DNA from: a candidate division WOR-3 bacterium
Lineage (GTDB): Bacteria > Hydrothermota > Tepidihabitantia > Tepidihabitantales > Tepidihabitantaceae
Direction of reading: 5' to 3'
Assembly: GCA_024653355.1 (NCBI GenBank)
Contig: JANLFQ010000001.1
Location: forward strand, 434,001 to 498,000
DNA: 64,000 nucleotides
Position numbers and translations under genes: made by a program. Position 1 is the stretch's first letter. Each line of letters begins with the position of its first letter. Below are positions 744-7,300 of this stretch, one piece after another. The notes below the pieces were generated by a model that had not been told where the DNA came from, ran no database searches, and saw only the letters and a list, made by a program, of their open reading frames with translations.

Positions 744-1154
744 TTGTTGCGGTTCGGGGTCAGTGCCAAAAAAGAGTCGGAACTGGCGGAAAAGATGGCA
801 CAGTATGGAATCCGGGAGGAAGATTTAATAGAGCGGTTTGTGCGCTCCCGCGGTCCCGGTGGCCAGAATGTCAACAAGGTGGCGACCGGGGTTTATCTTA
901 AACACCTGCCAACCGGAATAGAAGTTAAAGTTACCCGGGAACGTTCCCAGGCGTTAAATCGGTTTCTCGCCCGCAGAATTTTAACCGAAAAGGTGGCGGC
1001 GCAAATCCTGAAAATCGAAACCGAACGGGAAAGAGAGATTGCCCGGATTCGGCGTCAAAAGCGGCGCCGTTCAAGAAGGGCAAAGGAAAAGGTTTTGCGA
1101 TTAAAACACCTTATCGCAGAGAAAAAGGAGTTGCGCAAACCACCCGATGATTAA
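744..1154 (+). CDS. Peptide chain release factor-like protein (GGQ domain only)
   Basis: This 136-residue protein consists almost only of the RF-1 catalytic domain: RSRGPGGQNVNK around residues 33-44 carries the GGQ peptidyl-tRNA hydrolysis motif, followed by a strongly basic helical tail rich in Arg and Lys. It lacks the codon-recognition domains of RF1/RF2, so it resembles ArfB (YaeJ) or the short release-factor-like family, which hydrolyse peptidyl-tRNA on stalled ribosomes. Which of the two it is cannot be decided by eye. The start is TTG, with GAGGAG about 9 bases upstream; it lies 24 bases after the preceding gene and is probably co-transcribed with it. Confidence 0.85.
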   Translation: MLRFGVSAKKESELAEKMAQYGIREEDLIERFVRSRGPGGQNVNKVATGVYLKHLPTGIEVKVTRERSQALNRFLARRILTEKVAAQILKIETEREREIARIRRQKRRRSRRAKEKVLRLKHLIAEKKELRKPPDD

Positions 1155-1266: not shown

Positions 1267-3525
1267 ATGATGAAAAGTCGTGTCACATTCAGGGCGTTTA
1301 CCCTGATTTTTTGTCTTGCTGCCTTAATCGGTTTCACCCAGGCAAGGCAACTGATTGTCCGGGTTCAAGCACCGGACTATCAAACTGTTTATCAACATAT
1401 CCCCTTCAAGGGAACATCAATTGAGATTGCCGGTGCCATACCGGGCTCATCATACGACCTGCTCCTTGAAGAAGAGGACCTGAGTCTTGTGCTCAATTCC
1501 GGTTTAAAGAGCGAGATACTAATTCCGGACCTCGAAGCGCATAAGGTTCAAGCCCAGGGGTTTGGATTTTACTGTTCTTACGATTCATTAGTTTCAATTA
1601 TGCGTTCCTGGGCGCTGAACTATCCAGCCATCTGCCGTTTTGATTCCATTGGCCAGACGCACGAAGGACGCTGGATTTACGGCGTAAAAATTTCCGACAA
1701 CCCGCAGATTGAGGAGGATGAGCCTGAAGTTCTGCTGGTTGGGATGCACCACGCCCGGGAATGGGCATCGCCCCAGGCAGCCCGCTATTTTGCCGACACC
1801 GTTTTGCGTAACTACGCCAGCAACAGCCAATTTAGAGATTTCGTTGACAATCACCAAATCTGGGTGATACCGATTTTGAATGTTGATGGTTATGTGTACG
1901 ACTATCCTAATCAACGTTCCTGGCGTAAGAACCGTCAGCCTTTTGGTTCAGCAATTGGTTCGGATCCGAACCGGGACTACAATGGCGCCTGCAACGGCTC
2001 AAGGATGGCAGACTGGGGTTCCCTGGTATCCGGTTCAAGGTCCTCCCATTATCCAAGTGATGAAACTTTTATGGGCGGGTATGGTGCGTGGGGTAAAGAG
2101 GTTGCGGCATTGAGTTCCTTCTTTAAACAGCACACCTTTGTCTGTGCGGTCTCTTTACACTCTTACTCGGAACTTGTGCTCTGGCCCTATGGTAGTGGTG
2201 AGACACCACCGGATAATGCTACCATAGTAAGTCTCGGTCAGGGTATTGCTCAACAGATTCAAAAACTGTCCGGTGGCACATATACACCTCAGCCTTCAAG
2301 TCAACTTTATCCAACCAGTGGTGGTGAAATTGACTGGATGTATGGCTGGGCACATTACATCGGCGGGTTTCCCTGCGTGAGTTATGTATTTGAAATTGGC
2401 ACAGCTTTTTACCAGTCAACAAATCAACTGGATGCGATTCAACGCGAAGTTTTCAAAGGGCTCTGGTTTCTCTACAGCCGTGCTGACTCAGTGATTCAGG
2501 TGCTTGAGGGAGTGGTGCCGCGGCCCATTCTCGCTCCGATGGATACAAGTGCTACTGGGACCTTTGTAGTGCACTGGACGCCAATCAGGCCGGAACATAA
2601 TCACCCTGACCGCTGGGAACTGGAGGAGTTGTCTGACCTTTCAACAATTGAAGACGATTTTGAAAACGGAACTGCCCGATGGGTATTTCAGGGGGCATCG
2701 CTTTCCACAACTCAGAAGCATTCCGGGAATTACAGCGTTTACCTTGGTACCGGTAACAACATTGCCAATTATGCGCTGACAGCAGACCCTTATCCAGTTC
2801 AACCCGGTGACAGTTTGCGCTACTGGATTTGGTACAACACCGAGAACAATTACGATGTCGTGGTCACCGAAGTTTCACTGGAAGGCAAAGAGTGGATTCA
2901 ATTACACAACCGTTATACCGGCAATTCGAACGGCTGGGTATATAAGTCCTATTCACTTGAACCCTGGGCGGGAAAGTCGGTATTTATTCGCTTCCGGTAT
3001 ATGACCGATGACGCTACGCTCAATGCGGGTGTCTACATTGACGATGTTTGGCCCGTGCCCAGTTTTGCCCAGCGCCGGACCGTCGCTGACGATATAACCG
3101 ATACAATGTATGAAGTGTCCGTCAACCAAACCGGACGGTACTGGTATCGGGTGCGAGGTCACAATGCGGCGTGGGGTTGGGGTGATAAAGGACCGCTCGA
3201 AGACATTGTTGTGACCGGAACCGGTATTGCCAGCGAACCGACAGTTAAACACCTGACCTCACTTGACATAGCAGGAGCTAATCCCAGTGGTTCAACGATT
3301 AATATCCGTTATTCACTTGGTGCGTCTGGTCCGGTGCGTATTGAAATCTTTGATGCGCTGGGCAGGAGAGTCAATCGACTTGTTGATGGTGTTTATCCAA
3401 CGGGCGATTATCAGGTTACCTGGAACGGTACTGACCGCAACGGCAGAAAAGTGCCTGCCGGTATCTATTTTTGTCGATTCAGTGCGGAGCGAACGCTCAC
3501 AGAGCGAATTGTGCTTACTCGTTAA
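1267..3525 (+). CDS. Secreted M14-family zinc carboxypeptidase with C-terminal sorting-type domain
   Basis: Starts with a signal peptide (Lys-Ser-Arg, then a hydrophobic run ending near ...GFTQA). The catalytic M14 domain spans about residues 105-410: HHAREW supplies zinc ligands H162 and E165, SLHSYSE supplies H298, and FEIGTAF places the catalytic Glu at 376. The RNPDNRD-like region (SDPNRDYNG) is also present. A jelly-roll or carbohydrate-binding-like stretch follows (about 460-610), and the protein ends in a FlgD/Por-type C-terminal domain with the terminal residues IVLTR. It should be exported and release C-terminal amino acids from extracellular peptides. It has its own promoter and a good Shine-Dalgarno. 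The C-terminal domain resembles the tails of four other proteins in this window. Confidence 0.92.
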   Translation: MMKSRVTFRAFTLIFCLAALIGFTQARQLIVRVQAPDYQTVYQHIPFKGTSIEIAGAIPGSSYDLLLEEEDLSLVLNSGLKSEILIPDLEAHKVQAQGFGFYCSYDSLVSIMRSWALNYPAICRFDSIGQTHEGRWIYGVKISDNPQIEEDEPEVLLVGMHHAREWASPQAARYFADTVLRNYASNSQFRDFVDNHQIWVIPILNVDGYVYDYPNQRSWRKNRQPFGSAIGSDPNRDYNGACNGSRMADWGSLVSGSRSSHYPSDETFMGGYGAWGKEVAALSSFFKQHTFVCAVSLHSYSELVLWPYGSGETPPDNATIVSLGQGIAQQIQKLSGGTYTPQPSSQLYPTSGGEIDWMYGWAHYIGGFPCVSYVFEIGTAFYQSTNQLDAIQREVFKGLWFLYSRADSVIQVLEGVVPRPILAPMDTSATGTFVVHWTPIRPEHNHPDRWELEELSDLSTIEDDFENGTARWVFQGASLSTTQKHSGNYSVYLGTGNNIANYALTADPYPVQPGDSLRYWIWYNTENNYDVVVTEVSLEGKEWIQLHNRYTGNSNGWVYKSYSLEPWAGKSVFIRFRYMTDDATLNAGVYIDDVWPVPSFAQRRTVADDITDTMYEVSVNQTGRYWYRVRGHNAAWGWGDKGPLEDIVVTGTGIASEPTVKHLTSLDIAGANPSGSTINIRYSLGASGPVRIEIFDALGRRVNRLVDGVYPTGDYQVTWNGTDRNGRKVPAGIYFCRFSAERTLTERIVLTR

Positions 3526-3602
3526 CGATTGTTCAAACGGTTTTTACTTACTTCCTGGGGAGTAAAATAAGAGACTGCCAAAACAAACCTCGCTATTCGG
3601 GC

Positions 3603-3630
3603 TTGACTTTCTGTATGGTAAATCTACAAT
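3603..3630 (+). promoter_or_regulatory. Promoter of tRNA-Arg/tadA unit
   Basis: TTGACT (3603-3608), a 16-base spacer, TACAAT (3625-3630). The -10 box ends 12 bases before the mature tRNA 5' end, so only a few leader bases would need RNase P removal. No other promoter is evident before tadA or tRNA-Ser. Confidence 0.75.
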
Positions 3631-3642
3631 AGACTAAAGAAT

Positions 3643-3716
3643 GCGCCCGTAGCTCAACTGGATAGAGTGCCGGACTACGAATCCGTAGGTTGCGCGTTCG
3701 AATCGCGCCGGGCGCA
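3643..3716 (+). tRNA. tRNA-Arg(ACG)
   Basis: Full cloverleaf: acceptor GCGCCCG pairs with CGGGCGC (3709-3715), discriminator A at 3716, and the D arm and GCGCG/CGCGC T-stem with TTCGAAT loop are present. The anticodon loop CTACGAA places ACG at 3677-3679. The outermost anticodon-stem pair is a C-U mismatch. CCA is not encoded. A34 of this tRNA is the substrate of TadA, which is encoded 9 bases downstream. Confidence 0.97.
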
Positions 3717-3725
3717 TGGTATAAG

Positions 3726-4205
3726 ATGCGGATTTTTGAAGAAGACGAAAGGTGGATGCGAGTCGCCCTTGCCGAGGCACAACTTGGTCTGAAGGAAGGG
3801 GAGGTGCCGGTCGGTTGTGTGGTTGTGAAAGATGGCGTCATTATCGGGCGGGGACACAACCGAGTGGAAACCCTTAAAGACCCAACCGCGCATGCTGAAG
3901 TTCTGGCTCTAACCTCAGCGGCTAACACGATAGGTAATTGGCGATTAACCGGAGCAACAGTTTACATAACCCTTGAACCGTGTTTGATGTGTACCGGGGC
4001 ATTGATTCTGGCACGACCAAAAAGAGTTGTTTTCGGAGCCCGGGACGAGAAGTTTGGCTGTCTTGGTTCACAATACGATATCGCCCGGGACAACAGGTTT
4101 AACCATCGCCTTGATGTTACCGAGGGAGTTCTGGCAAGTGAAACGGCACACCTTTTGAAAACATTTTTTAAGAAAAGGCGCGAGGGGAAAAGAGCCTTAA
4201 AGTAA
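3726..4205 (+). CDS. tadA: tRNA-specific adenosine-34 deaminase TadA
   Basis: A 159-residue cytidine-deaminase-fold enzyme converting A34 to inosine in tRNA-Arg(ACG). Zinc site: H56-A-E58 (catalytic Glu) and PC86LMC89. The family's substrate-contacting stretch and GCLGS loop are visible. I use the ATG at 3726; an in-frame TTG at 3690 lies inside the tRNA and is unlikely. No Shine-Dalgarno is visible, and the coding region begins 9 bases after the mature 3' end of its own substrate tRNA, so tRNA 3' processing would leave an almost leaderless tadA message. The link between gene order and substrate is direct. Downstream, 12 bases after the stop, lies tRNA-Ser(CGA). Confidence 0.95.
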   Translation: MRIFEEDERWMRVALAEAQLGLKEGEVPVGCVVVKDGVIIGRGHNRVETLKDPTAHAEVLALTSAANTIGNWRLTGATVYITLEPCLMCTGALILARPKRVVFGARDEKFGCLGSQYDIARDNRFNHRLDVTEGVLASETAHLLKTFFKKRREGKRALK

Positions 4206-4217
4206 AAAAGTGTTTAT

Positions 4218-4305
4218 GGAGAGATGGCCGAGTGGACGAAGGCGCGTGACTCGAAATCACGTATACCCTTTTCGGGTATCGGGGGTTCGAATCCCTCTCT
4301 CTCCG
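4218..4305 (+). tRNA. tRNA-Ser(CGA)
   Basis: Class II tRNA with a long variable arm (GTATACCC/GGGTATC hairpin). Acceptor GGAGAGA (4218-4224) pairs perfectly with TCTCTCC (4298-4304), discriminator G at 4305. The anticodon loop CTCGAAA gives CGA at 4252-4254. CCA is not encoded. It lies between tadA and the M6 protease gene on the same strand, with no separate promoter that I can recognise. Confidence 0.96.
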
Positions 4306-4331
4306 CTTTTGACCTGACAAAGTGAGGGACA

Positions 4332-7300
4332 GTGAAACGAGTATCGCTTTCCGAGATTATAGTTCTGATTTTTATTTGTTTTGAGTTCGGAGCTGCGAAC
4401 AAAGTCATTTTAACAAGACCACAATCAGTAAGAAGCAACTTTCAGATTGAATTCAGCAAAAGGTTGATACCTGCGCAAACGGTAACGCAGAACAGAACAG
4501 CGCCATTTCAGCGTTTTCGCTTTCAGCCCCCGGGCAGGGATTTGGTGCGGATTGAGAAACTACAACAGGGTGGTGTCGATACCGTACGGGTCCTCTGTAT
4601 ACGGGTGGAATTTGTCGAAGATACCACGCCATTAACCACCGGTAACGGCAAGTTTGACACGCTGGGTTTTCTTTCCCCGGACTCCGGACTTTTTTACGAC
4701 CCGCCTCATTTCAAACTTTATTTTGAACGGTTGATGGAAGGGCTGCGCAACTACTACCTTGCCCAGTCGCAAGGACGCCTTTACATCGACTTTCGGGTGG
4801 TGCCTGATGGAGAAAAAGATGCCTATCAGTTACCAAGAGAGATGATGTTTTACGGCGACACAGTTTCTTACGAAGGAATTGAGTTCGGGCTGGTGCGGCT
4901 GATGCACGATGCATTCAAAATTGCCGATGAAGACCCGACAATAACATTTAGCGACTATGACGAGTTCATTATTTTTCATGCCGGCAGTGGATTACAGTCA
5001 GATTATGCCACGGACGGGAAATGGGACAGTCCTTATGACCTGCTTGCCGGAGAAATTCCCCCGGGTGCGATTGAAGCGTATCTTGGGGTTCCATACATCC
5101 TTGTTGATTCAGGGAGAACGCGTATTGAACAGGCAACAGTTCTACCAGAAATGATGCGGCAGGATACCCTTACCGAAAGGGGAGAAACTAACCTCGCGGG
5201 AATGGTGGGATTGGCAGGAACACTGGCGCACGAGTTTGCCCATCTTCTTGGCGCCTATGACCTCTACGATGTTACGGGAGTAACAATGGGGGTTGGGGCG
5301 TGGAGTTTGATGGGCTATGGTGGCTGGTTAGGAGATTATGGCGCAGGTGCGCCGCCCGGTGTGATACCCGGTTTTCTTGATGCTTACAATCGGGTCAAAT
5401 TGGGATTGGTTAACCCAACGATAGTTCAAACCCCAGTCGAGTCGCTCCTGGTATATGCGGCAGCGATTGATACCGGACTTTTCCGACTGCGACCGGAAAC
5501 TATTTTTCCTGTGGTGGTGAAGGTGCCGATTAATGAGCACGAGTATTTTCTCATTGAAAACCGGCAAACCGATGTGCGAAAACCGGACACCATTATTGTT
5601 GATGTCGAAGACGGCGTACTGATTTCTGTTGAGTCGAACGAATACGACTTTTTCCAGCCCGGGTCGGGTGTTTTAATCTGGCACATTGATGAGCAGATTC
5701 TCGCTGATTATGGGCCGTACAATGCGGTCAATATCTTTCCGGAACACAAAGGGGTTGACCTTGAAGAGGGAGATGGGGTTCAGGACTTTGATGTTCCATA
5801 TTGGCAGACTTACAATTACCAGTACGAAACATACGGATATAAATTCGACGCCTTTTCTAAACAGGGGTATAACGACCGTTTTACCGCCCAGACCAACCCT
5901 AATAGTGATGGATATACCGGTAAAACATTCATCGCGATTGAACTGTTAGGGCAGCGAGATACTGTTGACCGCTTGAAAGACACGGTGATTCCCGTGCGGA
6001 TTAACTGGGAGTTATATCAACCAGGATTTCCGGTTAATCAGAATCGCGGGGCACGATTTTTCTCCTCATTTACGGCTGATATCGATGGTAATGGCGTTAT
6101 GGAGATTATCACCGCCGATAGTGCCGGGTTGATAAGCGTCTGGGAACCCGATGGCAGAGGTTATCGCTTCCCCAACGGCAGTTTTGTCAACATCGGAACA
6201 ACTATTAGTGCCGATGTTGCGGTTGGTGATGTTGCGCCGAGTCCCGGGCTTGAGATTGTGGTCGTTGCTCAAGATGGCAGAGTGCGAATTTATGGGGCTA
6301 ACGGTCAATCAATCGCAACGATGCGAACATTAGACCGGATAACTGCAGCCCCGGTGCTCGCTGACATTGATGGGGATGGCTTAAAGGATATCATTGTCGG
6401 CTCAACCGATATGAAACTTTATGCGTGGAACTACCAGGGCATGGCATTACCCGGGTTCCCCTTGAATGTCGGTTCGGAAATAAGGGCACCGGTTGCGGTT
6501 ATTGATACCGTTCAGCCGAAAATAGTTCTACTTACTGGAGACCACCGGCTTTTTCTAATCAACCCTGATGGTTCAATCGTGCCCAATTTCCCGGTAGTTT
6601 TGGGACCTTCGTCGTTTTATGCGGTAAGTCAGCCAATCGTTGCCGATTTTGACCGGGACAGTGTTATGGAGATTGCGGTCATCGCCGGCGGAGAACATGA
6701 TTATAAACTTTACATATTGGAACAGGACGGCAGAGTTGTCTTCCAGTCTCAAATTCAAATTCAACACCCATTTATCGGGCAACCGGCAGCGGCGGATATA
6801 AACAATGATGGCTATTTGGATATCGTTGCCGCTTCCCGCCACAAAATCTATGCCTTCAACCCCAACGGTACTCTGGTCACAAATTACCCTTTTGTTCAGG
6901 AGTCAACCTATACCGTTCAGGAACTGGCAGGCAACTGGATAATCACTTACGATGTACCATTTAATTATACTTCATCACCGGTAATTGCTGACCTGAATAA
7001 CGATGGGGTCTTAGATTTGATTGTTGGCTCACCCCAGTACGGAATTTTGGGTTATGATGGCAGCACCGGCAAACTATTGCCGTTTTTCCCTTTACAGACG
7101 ACCGCACCGGTCAGTGCAGTTCCACTGGTTGCTGATATTGACAACGACGGTGTAATAGAAATCGTTGTCGGTTCGGACCAGGGTGTCTTCTATGCGTACA
7201 AAATTCCTCATTCTGCTGATAAGGCTGTTTGGTCCTGCGCCAATTATGAGCCCTGCCACACTGGATTTGTTCCCCTTTCCCATTTGACCGGTTTCCCGCC

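Follow-up and report, generated by a model that had tools for sequence, protein, structure and literature searches.

Introduction

Mixed tRNA-mRNA operons, as well as tRNA genes that neighbor the gene of their cognate enzyme, are known kinds of gene arrangement. The thrU-tyrU-glyT-thrT-tufB operon of E. coli belongs to the mixed tRNA-mRNA type, while cognate neighbors are known for selC, which occurs with selA/selB, and for pylT, which occurs with pylS.

The term “tRNA punctuation” is in use, as exemplified by a passage of PMC4394434, and loss of the tRNA adenosine(34) deaminase TadA is known in Mollicutes from passages of two further papers (PMC3711424; PMC11472039). The adjacency of tRNA-Arg(ACG) and tadA is unmentioned in the passages of the latter two, and no report of the gene pair was found in a search of the open-access literature. 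Here, the surroundings of tadA are described for the window, i.e., the whole 64,000-nt stretch of DNA that was analyzed, and compared with those of relatives from the same class and phylum and from other phyla. The arrangement tRNA-Arg(ACG)-tadA-tRNA-Ser(CGA) is best explained, with a probability of about 0.72, as an old tRNA-mRNA-tRNA transcription unit from which the tadA message would be freed by tRNA processing.

Organization of the Locus

The locus is made up of the following features (window coordinates):

3603..3630, + strand: promoter-like site TTGACT-16-TACAAT, 10/12 consensus matches, before tRNA-Arg(ACG)
3643..3716, + strand: tRNA-Arg(ACG), by the Rfam tRNA model (ARAGORN: 3642-3717)
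3717..3725, + strand: spacer UGGUAUAAG (= TGGTATAAG), 9 nt, between tRNA-Arg(ACG) and tadA, without Shine-Dalgarno sequence
3726..4205, + strand: tadA, tRNA adenosine(34) deaminase, 159 aa, ATG at 3726, stop codon ending at 4205
4218..4306, + strand: tRNA-Ser(CGA), 12 nt past the tadA stop codon, by ARAGORN

The limits of tRNA-Arg(ACG) at 3643-3716 (Rfam match in genome coordinates: G000:C1:437643-437716) are backed by the acceptor stem GCGCCCG/CGGGCGC and the discriminator A, and CCA is not encoded in the gene. The gap between this tRNA and tadA is exactly the 9 bases given in the original prediction, which was made from the letters of the window alone. With the NCBIfam TadA equivalog model (NF008113), whose cut-off is 150 bits, the encoded protein scores 181 bits, and the residues of its zinc site HAE...PCxxC (H56, E58, P85, C86, and C89) are invariant in an alignment of 20 relatives. 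All anticodons of the 47 tRNA genes in the genome were read, and A34 was found to be carried by tRNA-Arg(ACG) alone. The A34 substrate tRNA that the genome offers to TadA, its usual substrate in bacteria, is indeed the one adjoining tadA, as had been proposed.

The tRNA gene downstream of tadA had been overlooked at that stage. Judging by its anticodon, tRNA-Ser(CGA) is not a TadA substrate, and it is regarded here as the third member of a conserved unit. The locus displays the features of a mixed tRNA-mRNA operon, with a promoter-like site 5' of the tRNA and a closely spaced gene on the same strand, together with the layout of tRNA punctuation, as tadA is flanked by tRNAs at gaps of 9 and 12 nt. 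Elsewhere in the window (744-1154), a small ORF of 136 aa resembles a release factor, with prfB, prfA, prfH, and ArfB model matches that fall below the cut-offs.

Conservation and Loss of the Arrangement

We mapped tadA in 41 relatives as well as in 120 sampled genomes of the phylum and scanned its flanks for tRNAs. Within class and phylum, a tRNA was counted as linked if located on the same strand at a distance of no more than 500 nt from tadA, considering loci with enough flanking sequence. Upstream of tadA, tRNA-Arg(ACG) is linked at 40 of 42 loci in the class, compared with 22 of 49 in the rest of the phylum, where about half of the loci show no such linkage. For tRNA-Ser(CGA) downstream of tadA, the counts are 40 of 42 and 15 of 47, respectively. 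At a single locus (L034 in genome G028), tRNA-Arg(TCG) stands where tRNA-Ser(CGA) otherwise follows tadA. A survey of tadA neighborhoods had been suggested along with the original prediction, and the adjacency is found to reach well beyond this genome, both within the class and in more distant lineages.

The sample from other phyla comprises 79 named loci that were picked by TadA similarity, with uneven sampling, and linkage was counted within 300 nt of tadA. Here, tRNA-Arg(ACG) was identified upstream of tadA in 7 of 76 loci (Archangiaceae, two Nitrospirae, Omnitrophota, Puniceispirillum, Scalindua, and Poribacteria), and tRNA-Ser(CGA) downstream of tadA in 23 of 75 loci from many phyla. The order Ser(TGA)-Ser(GCT)-Arg(ACG)-tadA-Ser(CGA)-Ser(GGA) is common to the Archangiaceae (Myxococcota) and Poribacteria loci, the latter carrying an additional tRNA-Ala inside these six genes, and Ser(TGA) and Ser(GCT) are still located side by side in the genome of the window, away from tadA (L233). 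The shared six-gene order and the displaced serine pair would fit the break-up of an old cluster, with repeated assembly as a possible alternative to descent. Descent and repeated gain are indistinguishable on the TadA tree, which is unpolarized and requires 15 changes to account for the Arg link and 23 to account for the Ser link, and an independent-pairs test on this tree contained too few supported pairs.

The tRNA-Arg(ACG) pattern is present in 44 of the 54 class genomes that are at least 85% complete. Eleven class genomes are without tadA (G095, G097-G101, G035, G037, G089, G103, and G104), and the leftover matches in these genomes sit in ORFs at least as long as RibD. tRNA-Arg(ACG) is also missing in nine of the eleven, G095 and G098 having kept a copy, while the presence of tadA without this tRNA in G012 is due to a contig end at that spot. 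As the two genes are physically linked, one assembly gap could remove both of them; their joint absence includes G100 and G101, each of which consists of a single contig. A DNA search for tRNA-Ser(CGA) in G099, G100, G101, and G035, which divergent copies may escape, returned only other tRNAs, and the whole three-gene unit appears to be gone from these four genomes. Two loci considered as intron-bearing tRNA-Arg copies (L198 in G101 and L207 in G117) were rejected, since each consists of a 5' fragment that lacks the 3' half and neither is ACG. These arginine tRNA fragments resemble insertion-site remnants.

Promoters and Transcript Processing

The original prediction placed one promoter before the tRNA and none between the two genes. 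In a consensus scan of positions 3400-4500, with the tRNA and the gap included, the site at 3603-3630 was the sole promoter-like sequence, which agrees with this view. At gaps of 9 and 12 nt, a separate tadA promoter could fit only inside the tRNA. A similar pattern emerged from the 39 phylum loci whose gap between the tRNA and the tadA match is no longer than 50 nt (the short-gap set): a site with at least 9/12 matches precedes the tRNA in 33 of them, and a promoter-like site in the tRNA end and gap was detected in two. Among 24 loci with longer gaps, seven carry a promoter-like site within the gap; these include the five long-gap loci from family f8, where TTGACA-16-TATYCT is found before tadA. 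In this family, which belongs to the class, five of six loci exhibit such a site of their own between tRNA and tadA and the long-gap loci also keep the site before the tRNA, so that the two genes, still neighbors, look like separate units. To judge from these promoter-like sites and from the long gaps found elsewhere, a single unit does not seem to be obligatory. For the locus of the window, the single transcription unit originally proposed for tRNA-Arg(ACG) and tadA is supported by spacing, promoter pattern and conserved adjacency, and we infer that the genes are co-transcribed.

In the preferred model, the three genes would be read as one transcript from the promoter at 3603-3630. A cut at the 3' end of tRNA-Arg(ACG), after A3716, and an RNase P cut at the 5' end of tRNA-Ser(CGA), before 4218, would then release a tadA message that has approximately 9 nt of leader and almost no 3' UTR. 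A 5' end of tadA near 3717, generated by tRNA 3' processing, is plausible given this layout. The tRNAs of the unit, in which CCA is not encoded, would suit RNase Z. An RNase Z model yielded a match of 29 bits, under the cut-off, to one ORF of the genome that Pfam places in the beta-lactamase superfamily; as this match is weak, the exact 3' cut is uncertain. Enzyme and substrate would stand under one promoter at a fixed ratio, for which feedback is neither needed nor indicated, and the unit would represent an old bacterial gene cluster, inherited by descent in a phylum in which tRNA-led messages are common.

Translation of tadA would start from the short leader. The Shine-Dalgarno sequence reported as missing is indeed lacking in canonical form, but this is not a distinctive trait: among 40 long ORFs in the window, counted with a crude start-codon choice, 26 are likewise without one, and the lack was therefore rejected as a special mark of processing. 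A short leader without Shine-Dalgarno sequence is kept in most short-gap relatives. A hairpin CGCAT...ATGCG (3713-3730), which would span the tRNA end and the tadA start, was also discarded, as the acceptor stem wins in the fold and the hairpin is not retained beyond the genus. A start codon hidden in precursor structure could be rejected as well, since the tadA AUG is unpaired in the predicted folds of both the precursor and the processed form. With z-scores of -0.17 and 0.52, respectively, the stability of these folds is no better than that of shuffles, and no regulatory structure was seen around the tadA start in the predicted folds and the shuffle comparison. In genus g3 (L010, L011, L013, and L017), the tRNA and tadA are separated by an interval of ~70-100 nt with repeated GGGTTC/GAACCC motifs, and two of these loci (L011 and L017) present no in-frame ATG, GTG, or TTG from the tRNA to the conserved tadA start.

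The most unusual feature of the unit is the overlap of tadA with tRNA-Ser(CGA). At 17 loci, the tadA stop codon is located 10-47 nt within this tRNA; 15 of them come from six families of the phylum, one is from Scalindua and one from Blastocatellia (L016, L018, L020, L043-L046, L048, L056, L077, L081, L086, L089, L091, L096, L135, and L169). In families f29 and f12, the TGA stop codon corresponds to tRNA-Ser positions 12-14 and the TadA end R-R-D-G-stop is partly encoded by the 5' end of the tRNA. The window itself has a 12-nt gap between tadA and tRNA-Ser(CGA), without overlap. Overlaps of this kind would be hard to explain without a shared transcript, and on such a transcript the tadA stop codon would be cut off by RNase P. 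A tentative and unlikely extension of the model regards the unit as an ancient module punctuated by tRNAs, where the maturation of both flanking tRNAs would determine tadA expression; in the overlap lineages, each transcript would yield either a mature tRNA-Ser or a complete tadA message and not both, with RNase P acting as the switch.

Inherited Neighborhood or Functional Coupling

Other tRNAs of the genome provide a background for these observations, as about 16 of the 47 are situated no more than 30 nt before a same-strand ORF (ORFs unverified). Three such pairs were traced through the class. The linkage persists at 29 of 30 loci for tRNA-Leu(TAG)-tig (L273-L302), at 24 of 25 for tRNA-Ala(CGC) and an arginine decarboxylase-like gene (L303-L327), and at about half of the loci for tRNA-Ile(GAT)-sppA (L243-L253, L255, L257, L258, and L261), whose gap is 9 nt in the window's genome. 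The genes that we take to be tig, sppA and arginine decarboxylase-like were named from reading of the sequences and not from database matches, and we know of no action of Tig, SppA, or the arginine decarboxylase-like protein on the neighboring tRNA. As the first two of these unrelated pairs are equally conserved, class-wide adjacency alone is insufficient to show functional pairing; that tadA is linked more widely to the unedited tRNA-Ser(CGA) also speaks against this reading. The proposal that the adjacency of tRNA-Arg(ACG) and tadA is a clear functional pairing is weakened by these controls and finds no support, and conserved tRNA-gene adjacency in general needs a background count before it is read in this way.

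The control pairs and the frequency of tRNAs closely ahead of same-strand ORFs also favor a neutral history, in which a compact genome holds tRNAs within operons and tadA has kept its old neighbors by read-through transcription, the pairing conferring no benefit. Class-wide persistence of the unit, its recurrence across phyla in one orientation, and the tadA/tRNA-Ser overlaps suggest more than drift, with the caveat that the unrelated pairs persist equally well. Taken together, a purely neutral origin is considered unlikely.

According to the original prediction, tRNA and enzyme form a self-adjusting module, in which the efficiency of tRNA maturation sets tadA expression and the pairing was selected because TadA edits the tRNA. 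This explanation is quite improbable. It accommodates the fact that the upstream neighbor is the only A34 tRNA of the genome, and tRNA-Arg(ACG) is the tRNA found in 7 of 11 other-phylum loci with a same-strand tRNA no more than 300 nt upstream of tadA, far more often than expected by chance (~2e-9 under the assumption of independent loci and 40 equal isoacceptors, which does not hold). The joint loss of tadA and tRNA-Arg(ACG) fits as well, although it is also expected from their physical linkage or from a TadA that is useless without its substrate. Against substrate-specific linkage, the link of tadA to the non-substrate tRNA-Ser(CGA) has the wider distribution (23/75 vs. 7/76 for tRNA-Arg(ACG)), and functionally unrelated tRNA-gene pairs match the conservation of the unit. 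Furthermore, half of the phylum loci outside the class have no Arg linkage, family f8 has a separate promoter-like site before tadA, and the predicted precursor neither occludes the tadA start nor folds better than shuffles. Feedback tuning via processing efficiency is possible but unsupported.

Finally, a tadA promoter located inside the tRNA gene, which would render the two genes mere neighbors, is exceedingly improbable. In its favor, tadA has a promoter-like site in a longer gap in family f8; against it, the consensus scan of the window saw no such site within the tRNA or the gap, and only 2 of 39 short-gap loci have one in the tRNA end and gap.

Comparison With Described Systems

The preferred reading, a tRNA-mRNA-tRNA unit with a tadA message released by tRNA processing, involves an ordinary TadA with its usual substrate, as in bacterial tRNA-Arg(ICG) decoding described in passages of PMC3711424 and PMC11472039. 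In the TadA-less Mollicutes covered by these passages, the decoding of CGN codons is the question studied; of the 11 relatives devoid of tadA in the present set, nine yielded no ACG tRNA at all.

The unit offers a simple genetic handle on whether the adjacency of an enzyme and its substrate tRNA matters. As in selC-selA/selB and pylT-pylS, a tRNA gene adjoins the gene of an enzyme acting on the tRNA. Those pairs belong to special-purpose coding systems, whereas the tadA unit concerns a general tRNA and is linked more widely to a non-substrate tRNA. With thrU-tyrU-glyT-thrT-tufB, the unit has in common co-directional tRNA located just 5' of the gene for a tRNA-acting protein, one promoter and a message that would be released by processing. 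Unlike in that operon, which has a longer leader, a single tRNA precedes the gene and is itself the substrate of the encoded enzyme, the leader would comprise 9 nt, and a second tRNA follows 3' of the gene.

The layout also resembles mitochondrial tRNA punctuation: tRNAs are located on both sides of the coding region, its ends would be set by tRNA maturation, UTRs are nearly absent, and the stop codon overlaps the next tRNA in some relatives. In contrast to the mitochondrial case, the tadA unit is bacterial and comprises three genes, and its processing is predicted from the gene layout. If the unit works as proposed, it would constitute an instance of bacterial tRNA punctuation that unites an editing enzyme and its sole substrate and that is retained class-wide and seen in several other phyla.
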